DNA of 7,964 nt from Candidatus Jordarchaeales archaeon (GTDB lineage: Archaea > Asgardarchaeota > Jordiarchaeia > Jordiarchaeales > Freyrarchaeaceae), in assembly GCA_038889235.1 (NCBI GenBank), contig JAWAHN010000003.1, positions 1-7,964 of the forward strand, written 5' to 3'. The notes below the pieces were generated by a model, which saw nothing but the letters and a program-made list of their open reading frames with translations, ran no database searches and was not told where the DNA came from. The translations under genes were made by a program, and so were the position numbers. How positions within the stretch are numbered: the stretch's first letter is position 1; every line of letters begins with the position of its first letter. Below are positions 1 through 7,964 of this stretch, piece after piece.

Positions 1-480
1 GGGACTGTTTTTGTTTCCTTGTGTTTTTTTGTTTGTTTTTTGTTTTTTAAGTTTTTTCTTTTTCTTTTTTTGTTTGGTTTTCGGAACATTGGTTTTTTGG
101 TTTGGGGTTTATAAGGATGTTCCGGAACTGGAAAGAATTTTTTATGTTTTCTTTGTCTTCAAAGATATTTCTTTTTTCTTATTTATCTTTTTTCGAGTTT
201 GGGATGTGTGTTTAATGTTTTTTCTTTTTATATTGTTGTTTTTTCTGTTTTTTGTTTCTTTTTTTCTTTTTTTGTTCTTTTTTCTTTTTTGTTTTTTCTT
301 TTTTTGTTTTTTCTGGGCTTTTTCTTTCTTTTTCATTTTAAGGTGTTGTTTTTGGGTGTGGTTGGGTGTGGGTCTTGTTCCGCTGGGGTATTTAAGTTTT
401 TCGGTTTTGTTGTTTGGGTTTTTGGTTGTTGTGTGTTTTTGTTTTTTCTGTTTTTTGTTGGTAGGTGGTGGGTGTTCTAA
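1..480. other. T-rich low-complexity non-coding tract
   Basis: By hand count about 300 of these 480 bases are T, most of the rest are G, and A and C are scarce; one 60-base line (241-300) has 50 T. Open frames run through it on both strands, but their products are almost pure Phe/Leu/Val on the plus strand or Lys/Asn/Arg on the minus strand, which is what such composition yields by chance. No ribosome binding site or domain supports them, and the plus-strand frame runs out of frame into the thiolase gene. I see no gene here. The tract ends just before the thiolase promoter. It could be an easily melted element, a long untranslated or regulatory region, or extreme strand-biased mutation. Confidence 0.75.
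82..128. repeat. Inverted GGAAC repeats and a perfect 10-bp palindrome
   Basis: CGGAACAT (82-89) is the reverse complement of ATGTTCCG (117-124), with a 27-base spacer. The second copy overlaps a perfect palindrome, GTTCCGGAAC (119-128), so the half-site CGGAAC/GTTCCG occurs three times in 47 bases. The spacer contains a TATA-like string, TTTATAAG (107-114). The island stands out because the surrounding tract is nearly all T. It could be an operator or a hairpin in a transcript; no protein partner can be named from sequence. Confidence 0.5.
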
Positions 481-504
481 TGAGTTTGGTGTTTTTGAAC
501 AAAA

Positions 505-515
505 TTTTTATAAAG
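505..515 (+). promoter_or_regulatory. TATA box of the thiolase gene
   Basis: TTTTTATAAAG is preceded by the A-rich ACAAAA (499-504), which fits an archaeal BRE plus TATA box. With the usual spacing of about 25 bases, transcription would begin near 535, giving a leader of about 20 bases that still includes the ribosome binding site. Confidence 0.6.
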
Positions 516-541
516 AGAATCTTTTCATTCGGTTTCCAGAA

Positions 542-548
542 GGGAGGT
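542..548 (+). promoter_or_regulatory. Ribosome binding site deciding the thiolase start
   Basis: GGGAGGT lies seven bases before the ATG at 556 but only one base before the in-frame TTG at 550. The ATG is therefore the better start. Confidence 0.7.
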
Positions 549-555
549 TTTGGAT

Positions 556-1806
556 ATGGTTGAGGAAGTATATATTGTGGATTTCTTGCGGACTCCGTAT
601 TCTAGGTCGAGGCCTACGAAGCCTGAGACGGATGTTTTCAATAAGGCTTACATGCCGGATATGGCTGCGATGCTTGTGAGGAAGATGATTGAGAGGACGG
701 GGATTAATCCAGAGGAGATCGGTGACGTGATAACTGGTTGCACTATGCAGATGAAGGAGCAGTGGCTTTATGGTGGTAGGATTATCAATATTTTGGCGGA
801 CTTGCCGATAAATGTTCCGGCTCAGGGTACGGAGCGTGTCTGTATTTCGGGTATGTCTGCTATGCATCAGTGTGTGATGGAGATTGCTTTGGGGTACTCT
901 GATATAGCGATAGCGTGTGGCATAGAGCATATGACTCACCTTCCGATGCAGTTGGACCTTAACCCTCACCTTGGGGTTTCTCCGACGCTTCTTACGAGGA
1001 GGGATCTTATAGAGAAGTATGACTTGATTACTGCGATGAGCATGGGGTTGACTGCTGAGAAGTTGTTTGCGAAGTACAAGGATGTGTTTGGTTGGACTAA
1101 GAGGGACTTGGATGAGTGGGCTTACAGGAGTCACATGCGTGCGGCTCAGGCGTTGAAGGAGGGTTACTTTAGGAATGGTGCGGGTTACCCTGAGGGTAGG
1201 AGAGATGGAGAGATAGTTCCGGTTGAGGTTGAGCTTGCTGATGGTACGAGGAAGATTATTGACGTTGACCAGTCTATTAGGCCTGACACTACGCTTGAGG
1301 CTATAGAGAAGCTGCCGCCGGCTTTCAAGCCTGACGGTGTGCTTACGGCTGGCAACTCGTCTCCTTTGAATGCTGGAGCGTCTGCTATGATGTTGATGTC
1401 TAAGAGGAAGATGAAGGAGTATGGTTTGGAGCCTTTGGCTAGGGTTGTGTCTATAGGTTGGGCTGGGGTTGACCCGAGTGTTATGGGTGAAGGGCCTGTG
1501 CCTGCGTCTCTTAAGGCGTTGAAGCACGCTAAGCTGGAGGTTAAGGACATAGACTTCTGGGAGGTTAACGAGGCTTTCGCTGTTGTGACGTTGTTTGCCA
1601 TTAAGAAGCTTGGGCTGGACCCGGAGAGGGTGAATGTTAAGGGTGGAGCGATAGCTATAGGGCACCCGTTGGCGTCTTCGGGGATCAGGATTACTGGGAC
1701 GCTTGCCAGGATTCTCAACATTGAAGGGGCGAAGTATGGCTGTGCGACGCTGTGTGGCGGTGGTGGTCAGGGAGGAGCTACTGTGATTGAGAACGTGAAC
1801 GTCTAG
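556..1806 (+). CDS. Thiolase (acetyl-CoA C-acyltransferase), degradative FadA-like type
   Basis: This 416-residue thiolase has the length of a full family member. The family condenses two acetyl-CoA or cleaves 3-ketoacyl-CoA with CoA, in the cytoplasm. All catalytic landmarks are present: nucleophile Cys96 in ERVCISG, the VNEAFA motif at 337-342, His370 in GHPLASSG, and Cys400 in the glycine loop CGGGGQGG. GEGPVPA (311-317) resembles the FadA-type GxGPVPA stretch. The GHPLASSG segment differs from the usual GHPLGASG. The ATG at 556 is preferred over TTG at 550 by ribosome-binding-site spacing. No DUF35 partner, HMG-CoA synthase or beta-oxidation gene sits beside it, so I cannot tell fatty-acid breakdown from acetoacetyl-CoA formation. 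Wobble positions are strikingly rich in T and G. Confidence 0.93.
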   Translation: MVEEVYIVDFLRTPYSRSRPTKPETDVFNKAYMPDMAAMLVRKMIERTGINPEEIGDVITGCTMQMKEQWLYGGRIINILADLPINVPAQGTERVCISGMSAMHQCVMEIALGYSDIAIACGIEHMTHLPMQLDLNPHLGVSPTLLTRRDLIEKYDLITAMSMGLTAEKLFAKYKDVFGWTKRDLDEWAYRSHMRAAQALKEGYFRNGAGYPEGRRDGEIVPVEVELADGTRKIIDVDQSIRPDTTLEAIEKLPPAFKPDGVLTAGNSSPLNAGASAMMLMSKRKMKEYGLEPLARVVSIGWAGVDPSVMGEGPVPASLKALKHAKLEVKDIDFWEVNEAFAVVTLFAIKKLGLDPERVNVKGGAIAIGHPLASSGIRITGTLARILNIEGAKYGCATLCGGGGQGGATVIENVNV

Positions 1807-1844
1807 CCTCCCTCCTCTTCTTATTTTTGGGGGTTTGGTTTCTT

Positions 1845-2504
1845 TTGAGCTATGCTGTTTCTTGGAGTGGTGGTAAGGATAGTTGCCTCGCGTTTTGTGA
1901 GGCTTTGCGTAGGGGTTTGAGGGTTTCGCACTTGGTGAACTTCGTGTATGGGGGTTTGGTTCGCTCTCACGGTGTGTCTGCCGGCTTGGTTCGGCTTCAG
2001 GCTGAGCTTGCGGGTTTACCCGTAGTTCAGGTTGAGACGGGCTGGGAGGATTATGAGTACAATTTTAAGAGGGCTGCTCTCTCCCTTATTCCGCTTGGCG
2101 TTAAGGGTATGGTTTTCGGGGACATATATGTGGAGGAGCATAGGAGGTGGGTTGAGAGGGTTTGCGGCGAGCTCGGCCTTGAAGCCGTGGAGCCTTTGTG
2201 GGGGATGAAGCCTAGGGAGGTTATCTCTCGCCTATTGGACTACGGGATTGAGGCTGTGATTGTTTCCGCCCGTTCCAGTATCATAGGTGAGGAGTGGGCT
2301 GGGCGCCTGGTGAGCTGGGAGTTTGTGGACTTTCTCGAGGAGAGGGGGATTGACGTGTGTGGGGAGAACGGCGAGTACCACACTCTCGTCGTGAAGGCTC
2401 CGGTTTTCAGGGGGAGGGTGAACGTGAAGGTTGAGCGTGTTGTTAGGGAGGGGGACCGCTGGGTTGCGGTTGTCAGCTTGGCTGGAGTGCACTCTGGGTT
2501 TTGA
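1845..2504 (+). CDS. Dph6-related PP-loop ATP pyrophosphatase (diphthine-ammonia ligase family)
   Basis: This 219-residue PP-loop ATPase has the nucleotide loop SGGKDS at residues 8-13, a GDIYVEEHRRW segment, EPLWG, and the C-terminal signature GENGEYHT before APVF. Length and motif order match the Dph6/COG2102 family. Dph6 itself makes the final amide of diphthamide on elongation factor 2, using ATP and ammonia. From memory, archaeal Dph6 usually reads GEGGEFET at the signature, whereas GENGEYHT is common in the bacterial-type paralogues whose substrate is unknown, so the diphthamide role is not secure. I chose TTG at 1845 because it leaves seven residues before the PP-loop, as is normal; TTG at 1827 would add six residues. 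No ATG precedes the PP-loop. The gene begins 38 bases after the thiolase stop and may share its transcript. Confidence 0.85.
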   Translation: MSYAVSWSGGKDSCLAFCEALRRGLRVSHLVNFVYGGLVRSHGVSAGLVRLQAELAGLPVVQVETGWEDYEYNFKRAALSLIPLGVKGMVFGDIYVEEHRRWVERVCGELGLEAVEPLWGMKPREVISRLLDYGIEAVIVSARSSIIGEEWAGRLVSWEFVDFLEERGIDVCGENGEYHTLVVKAPVFRGRVNVKVERVVREGDRWVAVVSLAGVHSGF

Positions 2505-2516
2505 CGCTTAAAGGTG

Positions 2517-2521
2517 TTTTT
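2517..2521 (+). terminator. T-run between convergent genes
   Basis: The 33-base gap between the Dph6-like gene and the convergent UroD-like gene contains TTTTT 12 bases after the plus-strand stop. Archaeal polymerases often stop at such U-runs without a hairpin. The minus strand shows no comparable run here. Confidence 0.35.
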
Positions 2522-2537
2522 CTCCCCGGGTTTTGGT

Positions 2538-3671
2538 TTACGCTCTGTAGAAGCCGTACTTCATCACGGAGTCCTTCATCGCCTTGAGGTTTTCTGGGGG
2601 TATGTTGTCTGGGAGGACGCATGAGGAGCAGAGCATGTAGCCGCCGCCCTCCATGCACTCTTCTATCTGCCTCCTGCAGTATTCTTCGACTTCTCTCGGT
2701 GTTCCGAGCGCCGTCACGTGTGGGGGTATGCTCCCCATTATGCAGGCTCTTCCCCCGAGTATTTCTTTTGCCTTGAATATGTCTGTCTGGTCGAAGTGGA
2801 ACCACGTTTTTCCCTTCGGGAACTCTGTGAAGTAGTCTAGGACCGCGGTGTAGTCGTTGTCGAGGTGGAACAGCACTATGTATCCCTTCCTTATTATTTC
2901 TTCTGCTATTTTCTTTATGTGGGGCCAGAATAGGTCGAACCTTTTCGGGGAGATTATGTTTGGGGCGACGCGGGAGAACCCGTAGACGACTATCTTGGGC
3001 TCGGCTTCTCCTGCTGTAAACCTGACCTGCGGGTCTATGGTTGCTATCATTTCTTCTGTTGTCGCTTCGCATGCTGCGACCAGCGTGTCCGGGATTTGGA
3101 CGACGTCGAGGAGGTACTTGTCGAAGCTCCTGAGGAAGGATATCACGTCTACGGGTGGCTCAACCACGGCGTGGCCTAGGGTTAAAACGTCCATCTCTCT
3201 TAGCCAGGAGGCGGTGTCGAGCTCCGCGTACTGCGTGGCGTACTTTACGAGCTCGCTTTCAAGCTCGGGCCTTCTCTTGAAGGGGGCGAACCCCTTCTCT
3301 ATGACCGTCTTGTAGTCCTCTCTTTTCATGATCTCTCTTTCTATCATTTGCTCCGGTGTGTTCCCTTTTGGGAGCTGCCAGTCGAAGTAGAACATGCTGT
3401 GCGAGTTAGGCCAGGGAAGGTAGTAGATTATTATTGGTGAGCAGCCCGAGTATATGTCGAAGCCGCCGAACATCCTCCAAACCTTCTTCGTCGCTTCGTA
3501 TGACTTCTTCACGTCGAAGAAGAACTCCTCTATGGTCATCCCGGTCAGCAGCGCCTGTGCCGCGTGGAAGTCGGCGATGAAGGGCACGCGGTCGGGTTCC
3601 TTCAAGGCTAGAGCGGCTTCAACCCTCTCCCTTGGGGTCATCGTCTCCCTTTCATCCATCTTAAGAGGCAC
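2538..3671 (-). CDS. UroD/MtaA-CmuA superfamily protein (uroporphyrinogen decarboxylase-like methyltransferase fold)
   Basis: This 377-residue protein has the PF01208 layout: an N-terminal TPRERVEAAL...EPDRVPF segment (residues 12-31), a central TIM-barrel region, and the C-terminal ending GGGYMLCSSCVLPDNIPPENL (342-361 core) that in MtaA/MtbA-type corrinoid methyltransferases carries the last zinc-ligand Cys. Here that Cys is probably Cys351. The motif that is HxC in MtaA reads His269-Leu-Asp271, and a second HFD lies at 292-294. A methyltransferase or related role is thus more likely than heme synthesis, but HxD makes the metal site unusual. The GTG start is supported by GAGGTGA six bases upstream; the ATG four codons later is too far from it. 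It lies 151 bases after the C_GCAxxG_C_C gene on the same strand, with a weak promoter of its own between them. Confidence 0.85.
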   Translation of the reverse strand: MPLKMDERETMTPRERVEAALALKEPDRVPFIADFHAAQALLTGMTIEEFFFDVKKSYEATKKVWRMFGGFDIYSGCSPIIIYYLPWPNSHSMFYFDWQLPKGNTPEQMIEREIMKREDYKTVIEKGFAPFKRRPELESELVKYATQYAELDTASWLREMDVLTLGHAVVEPPVDVISFLRSFDKYLLDVVQIPDTLVAACEATTEEMIATIDPQVRFTAGEAEPKIVVYGFSRVAPNIISPKRFDLFWPHIKKIAEEIIRKGYIVLFHLDNDYTAVLDYFTEFPKGKTWFHFDQTDIFKAKEILGGRACIMGSIPPHVTALGTPREVEEYCRRQIEECMEGGGYMLCSSCVLPDNIPPENLKAMKDSVMKYGFYRA

Positions 3672-3677
3672 AGTTTT

Positions 3678-3684
3678 TCACCTC
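3678..3684 (-). promoter_or_regulatory. Ribosome binding site deciding the UroD-like start
   Basis: On the minus strand this reads GAGGTGA, six bases before GTG at 3671 and 18 bases before the next ATG at 3659. It therefore selects the GTG. Confidence 0.7.
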
Positions 3685-3706
3685 ACTGTTTCAGGAAGGG
3701 TGGAAC

Positions 3707-3720
3707 TGGTAAAAATACGT
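3707..3720 (-). promoter_or_regulatory. Possible TATA box for the UroD-like gene
   Basis: On the minus strand ACGTATTTTTACC is preceded by the A-rich GAAAAGA. Transcription would start near 3690, about 20 bases before the GTG. The match is modest, and the gene may instead be read from the upstream gene. Confidence 0.3.
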
Positions 3721-3730
3721 TCTTTTCCTT

Positions 3731-3743
3731 GGGCTTTGAGCCC
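3731..3743. repeat. Small perfect hairpin GGGCT-TTG-AGCCC
   Basis: A 5-bp stem with a 3-base loop lies in the 151-base gap between the C_GCAxxG_C_C and UroD-like genes. It sits about 80 bases after the upstream stop and just before the possible promoter. No T-run follows on the minus strand, so a terminator role is weak. Confidence 0.3.
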
Positions 3744-3822
3744 TTCTGGTGAAGCCGCCCCTCTTGTTAGTGGTTGCGCTGCCCTTCTTGCTCCACGAGT
3801 TGGTTTGCCGGCTTCTTTTGGC

Positions 3823-4377
3823 TTAGAGGATGACGTCGCTTCTCCTCACGAACTTCGGGTTGAACTTTGCCACGCTTTCCACAGCCCACCTCGCTAGGTC
3901 GCCGGTCACGTTCTGGCACTCGGGTATCGCTTTACCATTCTTTGCGAGCGTGAGGAACTCTGCGAGCGACTTCGGGTTGCTGAGTATGTAAGCTTTCCCC
4001 CAGTTGTGGAACTGAACGTCGACACACCTTATCCCCCCATATTTCTCCCTCATTTTTTCGCCGACCTCCGCCACCGCTCTGCTCACGACTAGCACTTTTG
4101 CCACGTTTTTCTCCACGTTTTCCCGGGTGAAGCCGAAGCTGAAGCTTATAGCCATAGCAGCCCCGGCCATCGCGCCGCAGGTTCCAAGGGTCATGTTTCC
4201 CGTTCCGCCGGAAAGCCCTATGGTTGCCTTCCAGACTTCGTCGACGATTTTCTCTCCGGCGTATCCGAGAGTATCCATGACCGCGGCGAAGACTGTTGGA
4301 GCGCAGGCCCGCCACCTCGCAAGGTACTCGTAACCTTTTCGGTAGGCTTCGTCGAGCAAGTCGCTCAGCTTCTTCAA
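3823..4377 (-). CDS. C_GCAxxG_C_C family cysteine protein
   Basis: This 184-residue protein follows the C_GCAxxG_C_C (PF09719-like) pattern: Cys25 in RACAPTV, a glycine-rich GLSGGTGNM stretch (54-62) leading to Cys67 in GTCGAMAG, Cys118 in GIRCVDV, and Cys154 in PECQNVTG. The family is small, often encoded near redox genes, and presumed redox-active or metal-binding; no reaction is established. The segment around 67-83 is hydrophobic and small-residue rich, as in relatives. TTG at 4377 is chosen because AAGGAGG lies eight bases upstream and the next Met is at residue 34, after the first conserved Cys. The overlapping frame from TTG at 4381 has an arginine-rich nonsense product. The gene shares a divergent promoter region with the DUF169 gene and precedes the UroD-like gene on the same strand. 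Confidence 0.82.
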   Translation of the reverse strand: MKKLSDLLDEAYRKGYEYLARWRACAPTVFAAVMDTLGYAGEKIVDEVWKATIGLSGGTGNMTLGTCGAMAGAAMAISFSFGFTRENVEKNVAKVLVVSRAVAEVGEKMREKYGGIRCVDVQFHNWGKAYILSNPKSLAEFLTLAKNGKAIPECQNVTGDLARWAVESVAKFNPKFVRRSDVIL

Positions 4378-4385
4378 ACAACCAG

Positions 4386-4392
4386 CCTCCTT
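4386..4392 (-). promoter_or_regulatory. Ribosome binding site of the C_GCAxxG_C_C gene
   Basis: The minus strand reads AAGGAGG, eight bases before TTG at 4377. Two TTG codons in different frames (4381, 4377) follow it; spacing and product choose the second. Confidence 0.65.
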
Positions 4393-4411
4393 AGCCGGGA
4401 TTACGCGGACG

Positions 4412-4487
4412 CCAGCTAACTTCTAGTAGAGGAAATATTTTTTACTTTCCTGGTGTGAAGAAGAGTCTAGCTGATTCTAGAGGCTGG
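4412..4487. promoter_or_regulatory. Shared divergent promoter/operator region
   Basis: Between the divergent C_GCAxxG_C_C and DUF169 genes lies one AT-rich core, AAATATTTTTTACT (4433-4446), usable as a TATA box on both strands: starts near 4412 (minus) and 4465 (plus) would leave leaders of about 35 and 27 bases. The core is flanked by GGAAA (4431-4435) and TTTCC (4446-4450), an inverted repeat. Farther out are TCTAG at 4422, 4466 and 4476, and CCAGC (4412-4416) facing GCTGG (4483-4487). The symmetry suggests one regulator controls both directions. Confidence 0.45.
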
Positions 4488-4491
4488 AAGC

Positions 4492-5319
4492 GTGGAAAGT
4501 AAGATTGCTAAGGTGCTGAATTTGAGGTATGAGCCTGTCGCCATACTGTGGGTTGACGATAAGCCTGAGGGCGCGGCTCAGTTTAGGAAGGGTGAGCGTG
4601 GCTGCGTCATGGAGATGTTCGCGAGGTCTGCTCTGGGCGAAACGGTTGCTTTTGACAGGGAGACGATCGGCTGTCCGGGTGGCGCGACGGGGTTAGGTTT
4701 CGGGAACTGGTATGAAAGGTTTCCCGGCGGTCTTGAGGGCTTCTACTACTTCTTGTCGGTGGGTTTTGAGAACTGGGATAGGGGGCGTGAGATCGCTAGG
4801 AGGCTTAAAGCTGAGGGGGTGGTGCAGGACAAGATAGTTGAGAAGATTGTTCACGGGGAGAGGTATAAGAAGACGCCCGACCTTGTCAAGAAGTTTGTCG
4901 AGGGGTTGCCGGTGGTCAACGTTCCGAAGAAGTACGTGGTGTTTAAGCCGATGAGGAATGTTGGGGGTGGCGACGAACCCGTGGTTGTCGTCTTCACGGT
5001 GAACCCGCACCAGCTCTCCGCTCTGATAGTGCTGGCGAACTACGATAGGGATAGCTGCGACAACGTGGTTGCCCCCATGGGGGCTGGATGCCACCAGATT
5101 GGGATATACGCTTACAGGGAGGCGTTTTCCGAGAAGCCTAGGGCGGTCATCGGACTAACAGACCTGGATGCCAGGATGAACGTTAGAAGCCGCCTGGGCG
5201 ACGACGTTTTCACCTTCGCTGTGCCATACAGGATGTTCGTGAGCATGGAGAAAAACGTGGAGGGAAGCTTCCTAGAAGTGGGAACCTGGAACGAGGTTAA
5301 AAAGTACTTGGACGCTTGA
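4492..5319 (+). CDS. DUF169 family protein
   Basis: This 275-residue protein matches the DUF169 (PF02596) pattern. It opens with LRYEPVAILW (11-20), then Cys38 in ERGCVMEMF, Cys61 in IGCPGGATGLGF (60-70), a variable middle, an FKPM...VVVFTVNPHQLSAL region, a paired-Cys segment with Cys189 and Cys200 around VAPMGAGCHQI, and a C-terminal MNVRSRL...FAVPYRMF stretch. The four cysteines could bind a metal or cluster, but no function is established for the family. GTG at 4492 is the only reasonable start: GAGG lies eight bases upstream and the next Met comes after the first conserved Cys. It is divergent from the C_GCAxxG_C_C gene, and its stop is seven bases from the stop of the convergent gene. 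C use rises toward the 3' end. Confidence 0.85.
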   Translation: MESKIAKVLNLRYEPVAILWVDDKPEGAAQFRKGERGCVMEMFARSALGETVAFDRETIGCPGGATGLGFGNWYERFPGGLEGFYYFLSVGFENWDRGREIARRLKAEGVVQDKIVEKIVHGERYKKTPDLVKKFVEGLPVVNVPKKYVVFKPMRNVGGGDEPVVVVFTVNPHQLSALIVLANYDRDSCDNVVAPMGAGCHQIGIYAYREAFSEKPRAVIGLTDLDARMNVRSRLGDDVFTFAVPYRMFVSMEKNVEGSFLEVGTWNEVKKYLDA

Positions 5320-5326
5320 CCCCCCC

Positions 5327-6034
5327 CTACTTCCTCTCAACTTGGGATGGTTTTTTATGCTTCTTTTTCAGGGCTCTTTCCGCTAGAAACCGGGAGTACT
5401 TCTCCCACTCCGTTTCCCCTCCGCCTTTCCGCCTCCATATTCTGAAGCGGCAGGTTTCAGCTCCAGCCGGTATAATCCACTCGAACTTCACGTCGAAGTC
5501 TGCTCCGCCTTTCTCTCTGAGAAACCTCATTATTCCCTCGACCAGGTACCTTTGGATCCTGCAGTCGAATGGCCCGTAAACGTCTTGGAGGGGGCACCAG
5601 AGTATGTCGAACAGCGCTTCGTCCTCGCTCAATATTTCAGGCTTCTCCACCGAAGTCCACAGTATGGTGTTTATCGCTGTGGCGCAGAAGCTCGCCTTCT
5701 CTATCTCGCTGGTCCCCTCGGGGAAGACGGCCCCCTCAAACATCTGCCTCGCCACCTCGTAGCCAACCTTCCTCAGCGCCTCGTTGACAACACTCTGCCC
5801 CTCGGCTCCAAGCTTCTCCTCCACGTCCTCCACGACTTGTAGCAGAGCCTTAGCCATGAAGAGCCCCCAGATAAAGACTGTTGACGGGTCGAAGTCAGGT
5901 CTTACCGCGACGCCCCTTCTAAACCTCTCGACAGCCTTAGCGAATGGTGTGCCAAACCTGGTCCCCTTCCAGTTCTTTTCCTTGCGCTCACCACCAGCGA
6001 GGATGCCCCCCTCAATCAAGGCTAAAACCCCCAC
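5327..6034 (-). CDS. Four-cysteine protein, possibly ATC-hydrolase-like (PF14196-like)
   Basis: I recognise this 235-residue product only tentatively. It has an alpha-helical N-terminal half, then ASFCATAIN (Cys117), LWCPLQDV (Cys147), PFDCRI (Cys158) and AETCRFRIW (Cys195), ending in a basic tail with KKKHKK. The CP...C...GxxxCxF arrangement resembles the L-2-amino-thiazoline-4-carboxylic acid hydrolase family, many archaeal members of which have unknown substrates. No signal peptide or membrane segment is evident. The start is uncertain: GTG at 6034 has no good ribosome binding site, while TTG at 6019 has GGGGG nine bases upstream. The next Met is residue 60, so a non-ATG start is likely. 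The gene starts 16 bases after the ferredoxin stop, so the two are almost certainly co-transcribed. Confidence 0.6.
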   Translation of the reverse strand: MGVLALIEGGILAGGERKEKNWKGTRFGTPFAKAVERFRRGVAVRPDFDPSTVFIWGLFMAKALLQVVEDVEEKLGAEGQSVVNEALRKVGYEVARQMFEGAVFPEGTSEIEKASFCATAINTILWTSVEKPEILSEDEALFDILWCPLQDVYGPFDCRIQRYLVEGIMRFLREKGGADFDVKFEWIIPAGAETCRFRIWRRKGGGETEWEKYSRFLAERALKKKHKKPSQVERK

Positions 6035-6050
6035 GAGTCCAGTGGCGCGC

Positions 6051-7124
6051 TCACTTGCGAGCGACAGCCCCTGGTATGTGCTCCGGCGGCCTCACCGCTT
6101 TGAGCGTGATCGCCCCCTCCGGGCACTTAACGGCGCAGACCCCGCAGCCAAAGCAGTTTTCGGGTATAACCCGCGCCTTGTACCTTTTGCTCCCCTCCGG
6201 CCTGTACATTTCTATGGCTTCAAAGTGGCACCTTTCAACGCACGTCTGGCACCCTTTACACTTTTCCTCGTCGATGAAAGCCTGCCACCTGCTTTTCTCT
6301 AGGGCTGCCTTTGTTACGGGTATGTTGGCTCCCTTAAGGAACATGAAGAACTCGCAGCAGTCGCTGCAGCAGTTGCAGTTGACCGTGATGCCTTTACCAC
6401 TCATCTCAGCCGTGTTGGCCCACGTGTGTATCAAGCCGTCCTCCTCTATCTCGTCTATGAGCTTCAGCGCCTCCTCTAGGCTGATCTCGACGCCGGACCC
6501 CCTCTCCACGACGTACTCCGCTCCCCTCCCAACCTGGATGCAGTTCCACCTCTTCGACTCGTCGGTATAGCGGCACCCGTCGCCAGCCAGCCTTGAAACA
6601 GTTCTACACGAGCACGGCACGACGGCTATCTTACTATTAGCCTTGAGAATCTCCCTTATGTCCTCGCACGGCAGGAGGTCGGGTGAATCCTTTACAGCTT
6701 TGTAGGCGGGGATCACTCTCCAAACCTTCATGCCCGTCGCCTTGATCAGCTCACCAAACTTGGGATAGTACTCTTTTTCGCCGAACTCCTTCCAGAGGGC
6801 TGCGTACTCACGCCCCCTCTCGGGGTCAAGCTGCCTAGTTGCGAGCGTCGCGTCGTGAAGCTGTATTATGTCTCTTGCAAGCCTAAAGTAGTCCCGTGCC
6901 TTGAAGTCTTTCGGGAAAGCCACTCCTTTAAAGAATAACCCGTCAAGTATCCTCCTAACTTTTTCGACTGGCAGCCCTGTTTTGCCGGCAACCTCCTCCA
7001 CGCTTCCGGGAAGTGCGGCTGCAACGGTAGCCTCCTCCTCGTTCATGAGGAAGCGGAGAATTTTCCTCAAAAGCTCGGACCCAGGGAAACCAAGCGACTC
7101 CATGATCTTAGAGTAAGGATCCAA
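6051..7124 (-). CDS. Winged-helix / Cys-rich domain / 2x[4Fe-4S] ferredoxin fusion protein
   Basis: This 357-residue protein has three parts. Residues 20-70 look like a winged-helix fold (SVEEVAGKTGLPVEKVRRIL, 41-60). The middle has two cysteine groups: Cys171, Cys173, Cys184 and Cys195 (CSCR...WNCIQ), then Cys250, 252, 253, 256 and 257 (CNCCSDCC). The C-terminal part is a classical double ferredoxin: CxxCxxCxxxC at 289-299 (third gap is three residues, ending in His300 rather than Pro) and CxxCxxxCP-type at 324-335. It should carry two [4Fe-4S] clusters and perhaps a third metal centre, and transfer electrons in the cytoplasm. Its partner is unknown. TTG at 7124 is supported by GAGGTGA six bases upstream; the ATG at codon 8 is too far away. 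It leads a two-gene unit with the four-Cys protein. Confidence 0.85.
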   Translation of the reverse strand: MDPYSKIMESLGFPGSELLRKILRFLMNEEEATVAAALPGSVEEVAGKTGLPVEKVRRILDGLFFKGVAFPKDFKARDYFRLARDIIQLHDATLATRQLDPERGREYAALWKEFGEKEYYPKFGELIKATGMKVWRVIPAYKAVKDSPDLLPCEDIREILKANSKIAVVPCSCRTVSRLAGDGCRYTDESKRWNCIQVGRGAEYVVERGSGVEISLEEALKLIDEIEEDGLIHTWANTAEMSGKGITVNCNCCSDCCEFFMFLKGANIPVTKAALEKSRWQAFIDEEKCKGCQTCVERCHFEAIEMYRPEGSKRYKARVIPENCFGCGVCAVKCPEGAITLKAVRPPEHIPGAVARK

Positions 7125-7130
7125 ACCTTC

Positions 7131-7137
7131 TCACCTC
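7131..7137 (-). promoter_or_regulatory. Ribosome binding site deciding the ferredoxin start
   Basis: The minus strand reads GAGGTGA, six bases before TTG at 7124 and 27 before the ATG at codon 8. The UroD-like gene uses the same motif at the same spacing. Confidence 0.7.
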
Positions 7138-7183
7138 AGCATGAAATAAAGGGGGGAAAGTCGTTTTCTGCTTTTTGGTTGAA

Positions 7184-7284
7184 GCGTCCTTTCACCACTG
7201 TCCACTCTACGCGTGTTGCCGGGTGGAGCGAAGCTACACATCTATTAAAGGACGCGCCCGGCGACAGGAACTCGCTGTGGTGAA
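7184..7284. ncRNA. Candidate structured RNA with a pseudoknot
   Basis: Three long helices can be read directly. Helix A pairs GCGTCCTTT (7184-7192) with AAAGGACGC (7247-7255). Helix B pairs TTCACCAC (7191-7198) with GTGGTGAA (7277-7284). Helix C pairs GTTGCCGGG (7215-7223) with CCCGGCGAC (7257-7265), with one G-U on the plus strand. B encloses C; A crosses both, and A and B fit together if B is trimmed to 6 bp. This is pseudoknot topology. The region lies in a 354-base gap without a convincing gene. Strand is uncertain, but the terminator-like hairpin downstream favours plus. I do not see RNase P, SRP RNA, tRNA or C/D-box signatures. Alternatively it is a leader or operator of the ferredoxin operon. 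Confidence 0.4.
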
Positions 7285-7340
7285 CCCGCAGACTAAAAAT
7301 TCTAGGGCGTCACCCTTGATTCATGTGGACTCGCGAAACC

Positions 7341-7364
7341 CCTTTAAAGGCTCCCAGCGGAGCC
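7341..7364. repeat. Palindrome CCTTTAAAGG overlapping a 6-bp hairpin
   Basis: CCTTTAAAGG (7341-7350) is a perfect 10-bp palindrome. It overlaps GGCTCC (7349-7354), which pairs perfectly with GGAGCC (7359-7364) across the 4-base loop CAGC. The two structures share two bases, so they could be alternative forms in RNA, or the palindrome could be a protein site in DNA. Confidence 0.45.
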
Positions 7365-7408
7365 CGTATAGCTAAAACAGCATTGGATTAAAAGCCGAGA
7401 GTGGAGGA

Positions 7409-7467
7409 ACTGGGCTGAAGCGCATCCTGCCCGGGATGCGCGCTTCCCTTTTTAATCTGAGCCCGGT
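7409..7467 (+). terminator. Long hairpin with terminator-like U-run
   Basis: GCGCATCC (7420-7427) pairs with GGATGCGC (7434-7441) around a 6-base loop. The stem continues as GAA/TTC beyond a two-base bulge, and C-C-T5 (7447-7453) follows on the plus strand. An outer pairing of ACTGGGCT (7409-7416) with AGCCCGGT (7460-7467), with one G-U, could close the whole element. On the plus strand it looks like a terminator, but no plus-strand protein gene precedes it. For the minus-strand nuclease gene it begins 12 bases after the stop, without a T-run. Confidence 0.5.
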
Positions 7468-7478
7468 GCGGAAGCCCG

Positions 7479-7964
7479 CTATATGTATTCTACGGGAGCG
7501 CGCTCCTCAACGTACGTGTAAACTTTAACGTTTTTCCTGGTAGCGAACTCGTAAGCGTTACTGTCTATAGTAGGCGCGACGAGAATCAAGCGCGGCTTAA
7601 CACCCTTCTTTTCCTCGTAAAGCTCACCTATCCTGAGAAGCTCGGTAACGTCGCTCTTCCGAACCCTCGCCTTGATCTCAATCAACATGTGAACGTTATC
7701 CCTCACAAGCAAGTCCACTTCAACCTCTGAAGGCTCACCGTAAACAACACCCTTATCGTCAAAAAGCTTCAAACGTGTAACTTTCGCACCCCTAGCCTCT
7801 TCAACAAGCTCCATCATGGCGTTCCGAAAGGCGACCTCAGCCCTAACCCCCCACCTACCGCCAAGCACCGAAATCAAACCCTCCAGCCTTTCAAACCCCT
7901 TCTGCATGTCGACCCTGATATTCTTCACTTCAGTCCACAAAGCTGCTATCTCCTTGCTGTGCTC
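7479..7964 (-). CDS. DUF3782-like PD-(D/E)XK nuclease domain protein, 5' end cut by window
   Basis: The frame is open to the window edge. Residues encoded between 7940 and 7964 (EHSKEIAA) continue naturally into LWTEVKNI, so the TTG at 7940 is not the real start and the N-terminus lies outside. The visible part shows a heptad-like helix (LWTEVKNIRVDMQKGFERLE), then LGGRWGVRAEVAFR, and the nuclease core: Glu in AEVAFR, Asp in EVEVDLLV, and E-I-K in MLIEIKAR, followed by LYEEKKGVKPRLILVAP. This is the DUF3782 pattern common in Thermoproteota, with an intact PD-(D/E)XK site; the family's substrate is unknown. No methylase, toxin-antitoxin partner or recombinase is visible beside it. Third codon positions favour T and G, like the plus-strand thiolase and unlike the minus-strand UroD-like gene. 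Confidence 0.8.
   Translation of the reverse strand, partial: EHSKEIAALWTEVKNIRVDMQKGFERLEGLISVLGGRWGVRAEVAFRNAMMELVEEARGAKVTRLKLFDDKGVVYGEPSEVEVDLLVRDNVHMLIEIKARVRKSDVTELLRIGELYEEKKGVKPRLILVAPTIDSNAYEFATRKNVKVYTYVEERAPVEYI

Follow-up and report, generated by a model that had tools for sequence, protein, structure and literature searches.

The window, a stretch of 7,964 nucleotides from the genome of an uncultured member of Candidatus Jordarchaeum (Asgard archaea), carries a cluster of five genes whose products, judged by sequence, resemble proteins of anaerobic redox metabolism and methyl transfer (Table 1). The contig begins at the start of the window, and the left flank is therefore absent. 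All five open reading frames of a preliminary description of this DNA were located, and its family assignments were largely confirmed by Pfam. Pairwise nucleotide comparison of the five genes with their orthologues in genome G001 gave dN values of 0.05-0.16 with synonymous divergence near saturation, a combination indicating that all five are real genes.

Table 1. Positions of the cluster genes, the divergent intergenic region and the flanking genes in the window.
Feature	Position	Strand	Description
Acetyl-CoA C-acetyltransferase (thiolase)	550..1806	+	flanking; outside cluster as counted
Dph6-like ATP pyrophosphatase	1827..2504	+	flanking; outside cluster as counted
UroD/MtaA-superfamily protein	2538..3671	-	377 aa; distant CdmB relative
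C_GCAxxG_C_C putative redox protein	3823..4377	-	184 aa; four Cys
Divergent intergenic region C_GCAxxG/DUF169	4378..4491	.	114 bp; AT-rich TATA-like core ~4430-4443
DUF169 (COG2043)	4492..5319	+	275 aa; three invariant Cys; Archaeoglobi-like subtype
ATC_hydrolase-like protein	5327..6034	-	235 aa; V4R/HNOB-related Cys domain
Ferredoxin fusion	6051..7124	-	357 aa; putative N-terminal winged helix, Cys-rich centre, two [4Fe-4S] motifs

The DUF169 and ATC-like genes are convergent, with stops 7 bp apart, while the UroD and C_GCAxxG genes are codirectional with 151 bp between them. The ferredoxin fusion is separated from the downstream ATC-like gene by 16 bp; this looks like the sole operon-like pair in the cluster, and the two are probably cotranscribed. 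Taken together, the gene directions and gaps indicate three or four transcription units. The shared promoter regions proposed for the cluster could be recognized for the divergent C_GCAxxG/DUF169 pair, whose intergenic region is poorly conserved within the genus, and not for the remaining genes. Common regulatory motifs were sought in the intergenic regions of the cluster, which are poorly conserved, and none was found.

The UroD protein matched PF01208 (URO-D) at 76 bits (E=3.6e-21; cut-off 23.9 bits) and scored 51.5 bits against TIGR01463 (MtaA/CmuA), far under the cut-off of 235.4. With the MtaA/CmuA methylcobamide:CoM methyltransferases it shares the superfamily, an aligned His ligand and an aligned C-terminal Cys, but it carries Asp in place of Cys in their H-x-C zinc motif. 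The corresponding H269-x-D271 was invariant in 12/12 relatives aligned, and C351, which aligns with the third MtaA ligand, was found in some relatives only. In a profile search, the nearest solved structure was that of CdmB (PDB 9rui; E=3.2e-48), a zinc-free, corrinoid-dependent methyltransferase I (PMC13222342). The protein is thus homologous to a component of the CdmBCA chloromethane methyltransferase system and related O-demethylase systems (PMC13222342), although CdmB, at 429 aa, is longer. These relationships suggest that UroD is most likely itself a corrinoid-dependent methyltransferase I. The handling of a methyl group had been suggested for the cluster as a whole; the CdmB relationship bears this out for UroD and does not extend to the other four genes.

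In contrast to the CdmBCA system, no corrinoid, methyltransferase II or activator gene adjoins the window UroD or lies within about five genes of it, and the 4 kb upstream of the cluster in G003, which cover the flank missing from the window, held no corrinoid gene. The corrinoid protein sought near the window was not found there, but corrinoid genes do occur elsewhere in the genome: the nearest on the same contig are at C3:121 and C3:146 kb, a UroD, corrinoid, MtrH and RACo set lies at C1:158-178 kb, and at C2:267 kb (G000:C2:267349) there is a corrinoid gene without partners. In three genomes of the sister family, the UroD orthologue is located no more than ~6 kb from a corrinoid protein gene, and there it adjoins genes for a GH38 alpha-mannosidase and a sulfatase. 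UroD would thus most likely transfer a methyl group from a small substrate to the corrinoid cobalt of a protein whose gene lies elsewhere, an in-trans partner that we infer; MtrH- and RACo-type proteins encoded by the genome would then hand the methyl group onward and reactivate the corrinoid. Given the alpha-mannosidase/sulfatase/corrinoid context in the sister family, methylated or sulfated glycans are a methyl source that could be tested. It has already been inferred that Jordarchaeia are acetogens that oxidise fatty acids and use methyl groups (PMC9723677), and UroD would add a candidate methyltransferase to this group.

The C_GCAxxG protein matched PF09719 at 55.5 bits (E=7.5e-15; cut-off 27 bits) and fell below the cut-off of TIGR01909 (38.5 versus 47.4 bits). 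It resembles the C_GCAxxG_C_C putative redox (seleno)proteins of these families in its C and GTCGA motifs and in the Cys pair at its C terminus, but lacks selenocysteine, and it may be a redox protein working through cysteines, of a type that pairs elsewhere with the ferredoxin-fusion family. Two genes beside a sister-family C_GCAxxG gene (L234) had been considered as further ATC support; one, when checked, was a KaiC-V4R protein, and the second, KaiC-V4R-like by sequence, was dropped as well.

The ATC-like protein matched PF14196 weakly (21.4 bits, E=4.6e-4, against a cut-off of 28.1), while its orthologue in G067 (47% identical) reached 41 bits, above the cut-off. It shares with the ATC_hydrolase PF14196/V4R/HNOB domains three conserved Cys with WCP and FDCR motifs; it differs from PF14196 in its score below the cut-off and its longer N terminus. 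Orthologues occur across several Asgard families. The protein had been described as having four cysteines, and of these C147, C158 and C195 were invariant in 13 Asgard orthologues, whereas C117 was present in this genus only. No context pointing to L-ATC hydrolysis was found for the window protein, and its three-Cys ATC/V4R-type domain may instead bind a thiol or other small ligand. A structure model based on an alignment of four close orthologues had low confidence (mean pLDDT 41.9) and was set aside.

The ferredoxin fusion matched Fer4_21 at 38.5 bits (cut-off 35), and Fer4 was matched by 21/21 members of its family. The Cys-rich centre comprises C171, C173, C184, C195, C250, C252, C253 and C257. 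The winged helix assigned to this protein was undetectable in the window sequence alone, but a TrmB-type helix-turn-helix was detected in 4/21 relatives (best 4e-7). In G067, too, the ferredoxin fusion is the gene immediately upstream of the ATC-like orthologue, and in G091 the two are one gene apart; as a recurrent pair, however, the association was not significant (2/17 at best, p ~0.07). In the window the two genes would form a two-gene unit, the ferredoxin part of which may supply or sense electrons.

The DUF169 protein matched PF02596 strongly (167.8 bits, E=3.8e-49; cut-off 27 bits) and has C38, C61 and C200 as invariant cysteines. It falls in a 17-sequence clade with Archaeoglobi (59-67% identity) that contains no further Asgard member, and the gene was probably acquired horizontally, as a later arrival from an Archaeoglobi-like source. 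The reading frame is broken in two of the four genus genomes (G002 and G003), which could reflect assembly errors; the DUF169 region of G002 also holds runs of N. None of the other four genes was found near DUF169 orthologues in the Archaeoglobi, Methanothrix, Coatesbacteria and Pelotomaculum loci, where gene neighbourhoods are not conserved, and a search of 12 genomes with related DUF169 genes, run without a positive control, did not find the ATC-like subfamily. The DUF169 structure model was of high confidence (mean pLDDT 94.7), yet Foldseek gave no match among solved structures (best E = 0.57), and a likeness to thiolases (Z ~5) was too weak to interpret. When solved structures were searched by sequence, no clear relative emerged for DUF169, the C_GCAxxG protein or the ATC-like protein. 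In the literature searched, the one DUF169 phenotype found was that of Dde_0597, in the Desulfovibrio ‘nitrate cluster’, the disruption of which increased fitness in nitrate (PMC4001038). Dde_0597 shares its Pfam family with the window protein, but its context of TauE-like permease, PtxB-like and signalling genes differs from that in the window.

The order of the cluster was identical in all four sampled Candidatus Jordarchaeum genomes, with 72-90% protein identity, and the flanking thiolase and Dph6-like genes, which are unrelated to the cluster, hold the same synteny in all four. In the sister family, sampled as fragmented assemblies of a single genus, orthologues of UroD (71-73% identity; G004:C251, G005:C83, G006:C67, G007:C17), C_GCAxxG (52-62%; G007:C40, G007:C12, G005:C153) and the ATC-like protein (67%; G004:C528, G005:C167, G006:C84, G007:C32) lie on separate contigs. 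Outside the genus, therefore, three or more of the five orthologues were nowhere found together, the sister-family orthologues being unlinked and the DUF169 orthologues lacking the partners. When paralogues were allowed, at least three of the families occurred together once, in a sister-family operon of ~5.5 kb (L165) containing DUF169, two ferredoxin fusions and two ATC-type genes and terminating in a thiolase gene.

The suggestion that the five genes serve one shared pathway is thus unsupported, because the orthologues are unlinked in the sister family and DUF169 groups with Archaeoglobi and has a broken frame in two of the four genus genomes; nothing joins UroD to DUF169, or the five genes to a common pathway. 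A local gathering of separate pieces is more likely than one new pathway, and we consider it probable that this neighbourhood is specific to the genus and made up of three or four transcription units, separate from one another and of differing history. The analysis shows the sequence relationships, the gene order, the lost linkage in the sister family and the grouping of DUF169, whereas all biochemical roles are inferred. Note, however, that shared function could explain why the cluster has been kept at its level of protein identity. The pairings of the ferredoxin fusion with DUF169 and C_GCAxxG, and the L165 operon, in which three of the five families are joined, also count against separate units.

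Elsewhere in Asgard archaea, the ferredoxin-fusion family adjoins DUF169 at 10/63 loci, one of the ten (L200) being a short ferredoxin piece only, and C_GCAxxG at 8/14 loci, mostly as paralogues in both cases. These adjacencies are far above chance, with p-values that exaggerate their significance, one Asgard family having contributed many of the loci. It is possible, though rather unlikely, that the family is an undescribed hub delivering or sensing electrons for small Cys-rich partners, with the window and L165 as separate assemblies and UroD as a client; the partners would be DUF169, C_GCAxxG, ATC-type, DUF3795 and TIGR04076-like proteins. The recurring partnerships are worth following, and they give a tangible starting point for DUF169 and C_GCAxxG, families with little published function.

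The repeated pairing of the same families, including three of the five in the sister-family operon, and the gene order conserved in four genomes would also fit a genus-specific redox/methyl module. In it, UroD would remove the methyl group from a thiol or ether substrate, electrons from C_GCAxxG and the ferredoxin fusion would maintain the corrinoid in its reduced state, and the thiol product would be bound or processed by DUF169 and the ATC-like protein. Such a module is improbable given the mixed gene directions across three or four transcription units, the unlinked sister-family orthologues, a DUF169 that is foreign and broken in half of the genomes, a neighbourhood without a corrinoid gene, and a RACo-type activator already present in the genome with another UroD set.

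The divergent C_GCAxxG/DUF169 promoter region and the TrmB-like helix-turn-helix in 4/21 family members raise a further alternative, a redox-responsive regulatory island in which the ferredoxin fusion would act as an iron-sulfur transcription regulator and control the neighbouring genes through its winged helix. The ATC/V4R-type protein would then be a ligand sensor, consistent with the kinship of ATC domains to V4R/HNOB (PMC5847659) and with ATC-type domains that are fused to, or beside, other proteins. This is quite improbable, however, as the intergenic regions are poorly conserved and share no motif, the helix-turn-helix region is absent from the short ferredoxin-fusion relatives found in pairs with C_GCAxxG, and the ~16-33 family matches per genome in better-covered relatives, generic ferredoxin matches included, are many for dedicated regulators.

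Least probable is that the genes serve thioester chemistry in a fatty-acid/acyl-CoA neighbourhood, since Dph6-like and nuclease genes are interspersed and the sister-family UroD and C_GCAxxG orthologues generally lie outside comparable contexts, although a thiolase lies inside the window and another ends L165, an enoyl-CoA hydratase gene is upstream in G003, fatty-acid oxidation has been inferred for Jordarchaeia (PMC9723677), and CoA-ligase (acyl-CoA synthetase) domains fused to an ATC domain are encoded 11 kb downstream.

All five genes, with the families named in the preliminary description, were present in the window, which opens contig C3 (bases 1-7964) of a 2.14-Mb genome. Their directions in the window sequence ruled out a single operon. 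Protein-coding constraint was clear in each of the five, and the intergenic regions were weakly conserved. The order and orientation of the thiolase, Dph6-like, UroD, C_GCAxxG, DUF169, ATC-like and ferredoxin-fusion genes were identical in all four Candidatus Jordarchaeum genomes, but the thiolase and Dph6-like genes on the flank were retained as well, so the conserved order does not set the five apart. The same order around DUF169 was found in named relatives (Candidatus Jordarchaeum and Jordarchaeia, Asgard archaea). Jordarchaeia are described as anaerobic organotrophs that oxidize fatty acids or lactate, with MtrAH-type enzymes enabling them to use methyl groups (PMC9723677). The DUF169 frame carried a one-base break in genome G003 and several breaks, close to N runs, in G002; either true gene decay or faulty assembly could account for them.

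Features at the locus and elsewhere (window coordinates unless a genome or contig is named; G000, window genome; G004-G007, sister family of the same order; G082, another genome; C, contig; L, locus)
Feature	Location	Direction	Remarks
T-rich stretch	1-540		60% T, at contig end
AACAAAATTTTTATAAAGAGA-like box	499-520		upstream of thiolase
UroD	2538..3671	leftward	151 bp from C_GCAxxG
C_GCAxxG	3823..4377	leftward	114-bp divergent gap in common with DUF169
DUF169	4492..5319	rightward	
ATC-like	5327..6034	leftward	16 bp from ferredoxin fusion; both convergent on DUF169
Ferredoxin fusion	6051..7124	leftward	
DUF3782/PD-(D/E)XK nuclease	7479-7964 and just beyond		
CoA-ligase/ATC_hydrolase fusion	G000:C3:18708-20000 (L032)		11 kb right of window
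UroD, corrinoid, MtrH, RACo set	G000:C1:158-178 kb		
Unpartnered corrinoid gene	G000:C2:267 kb		
UroD orthologues	G004:C251, G005:C83, G006:C67, G007:C17		71-73%
C_GCAxxG orthologues	G005:C153, G007:C40, G007:C12		52-62%
ATC-like orthologues	G004:C528, G005:C167, G006:C84, G007:C32		67%
Eight-gene locus L165	G007:C41, 9632-16705		apparent operon
Joined frame L189	G082:C127, 5096-7021		642 aa

At the left end, the AACAAAATTTTTATAAAGAGA-like box was near-identical in all four genus genomes and is probably the thiolase promoter. The thiolase of the other three genomes was not preceded by the extremely T-rich stretch, which may represent inserted DNA or an assembly artefact.

Beyond the genus, the proposed five-gene redox module was unsupported. 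Orthologues were present in the sister family but lay apart from each other; the ferredoxin fusion found a top match there of just 39%, and DUF169 of the window subtype was not found in these four genomes. The nearest relatives of the window DUF169 were from Archaeoglobi (59-67%), then Methanothrix, Coatesbacteria and Pelotomaculum, and in a tree the Jordarchaeum proteins stood beside Archaeoglobi in a clade holding no other Asgard sequence. None of the other four genes occurred at those DUF169 loci, whose neighbourhoods were not conserved. The sister-family scatter, together with foreign DUF169 relatives that lack the partners, speaks for assembly of the cluster inside the genus out of parts with different origins.

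A profile of UroD orthologues searched against solved structures matched CdmB (corrinoid-dependent methyltransferase I) best, with E=3.2e-48, while MtaA (methylcobamide:CoM methyltransferase) scored far more weakly (2.5e-10), and the MtaA zinc motif was changed to H269-x-D271 in the window protein. CdmB is a zinc-free, corrinoid-dependent enzyme acting on chloromethane, and its authors remarked on Asgard homologues (PMC13222342). In three sister-family genomes (G004, G006 and G007; L221, L222 and L224), the UroD orthologue lay in a conserved locus beside a cupin-like protein that matched no Pfam family, a GH38 alpha-mannosidase and a sulfatase, with a corrinoid protein about 6 kb away; two of these loci, those whose contig extends far enough, also had an alkyl-sulfatase-type metallo-beta-lactamase protein nearby. 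This content suggests use of methylated or sulfated glycans. The window genome holds its UroD-corrinoid-MtrH-RACo set among other corrinoid genes, and its unpartnered corrinoid gene is 43-48% identical to the sister-family protein. The kinship with CdmB, the sister-family linkage and these corrinoid genes make it likely that the window UroD is a methyltransferase partnered with an unlinked corrinoid protein. Comparison supports methyl transfer by UroD, but not the single joint pathway suggested for the five genes, the biochemistry of all of which is predicted.

The ferredoxin-fusion family was large in Asgard archaea, occurred also in some bacteria and Archaeoglobales, and had no family-level name in NCBIfam. 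Of 63 DUF169 loci, 10 had a ferredoxin-fusion neighbour (about 2.5% expected by chance at each locus; p=4e-6), as did 8 of 14 C_GCAxxG loci outside the order (p=5e-10); both pairings are real, despite p-values inflated by related genomes. In eight Asgard genomes, all from one large family, C_GCAxxG was divergent from a short ferredoxin-fusion relative (L147, L150-L154, L157 and L158). At L189, ferredoxin fusion and DUF169 formed one uninterrupted frame; since they were separate overlapping genes in its relative L172, this frame represents either fused genes or an assembly that differs by a single base. The ATC-like protein belonged to a distinct subfamily with three invariant cysteines, kept across several Asgard families, and the ferredoxin fusion lay immediately upstream of its gene in the genus and in another genome, G067; in G091 it was one gene away. 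ATC-type domains are kin to V4R and heme-NO-binding sensor domains (PMC5847659). The sister-family locus L165 ran DUF169, ferredoxin fusion, ferredoxin fusion, TIGR04076-like, ATC, DUF3795-like, ATC and thiolase, the names TIGR04076, DUF3795 and thiolase being given by reading of the sequences, not by profile search. These comparisons support the view that the ferredoxin-fusion family repeatedly partners with several Cys-rich families, the one lead here deserving a broader census. The sole DUF169 phenotype found is a Desulfovibrio mutant that grows better in nitrate (PMC4001038).

To the right, the nuclease gene was followed outside the window by an N run and an in-frame repeated segment (about 7816-8340 in L032). 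Further along the contig, a CoA-ligase of the acyl-CoA synthetase type was fused to an ATC_hydrolase/DUF6125 domain, and long ATC-containing frames resembling it were present in G001 and G003.
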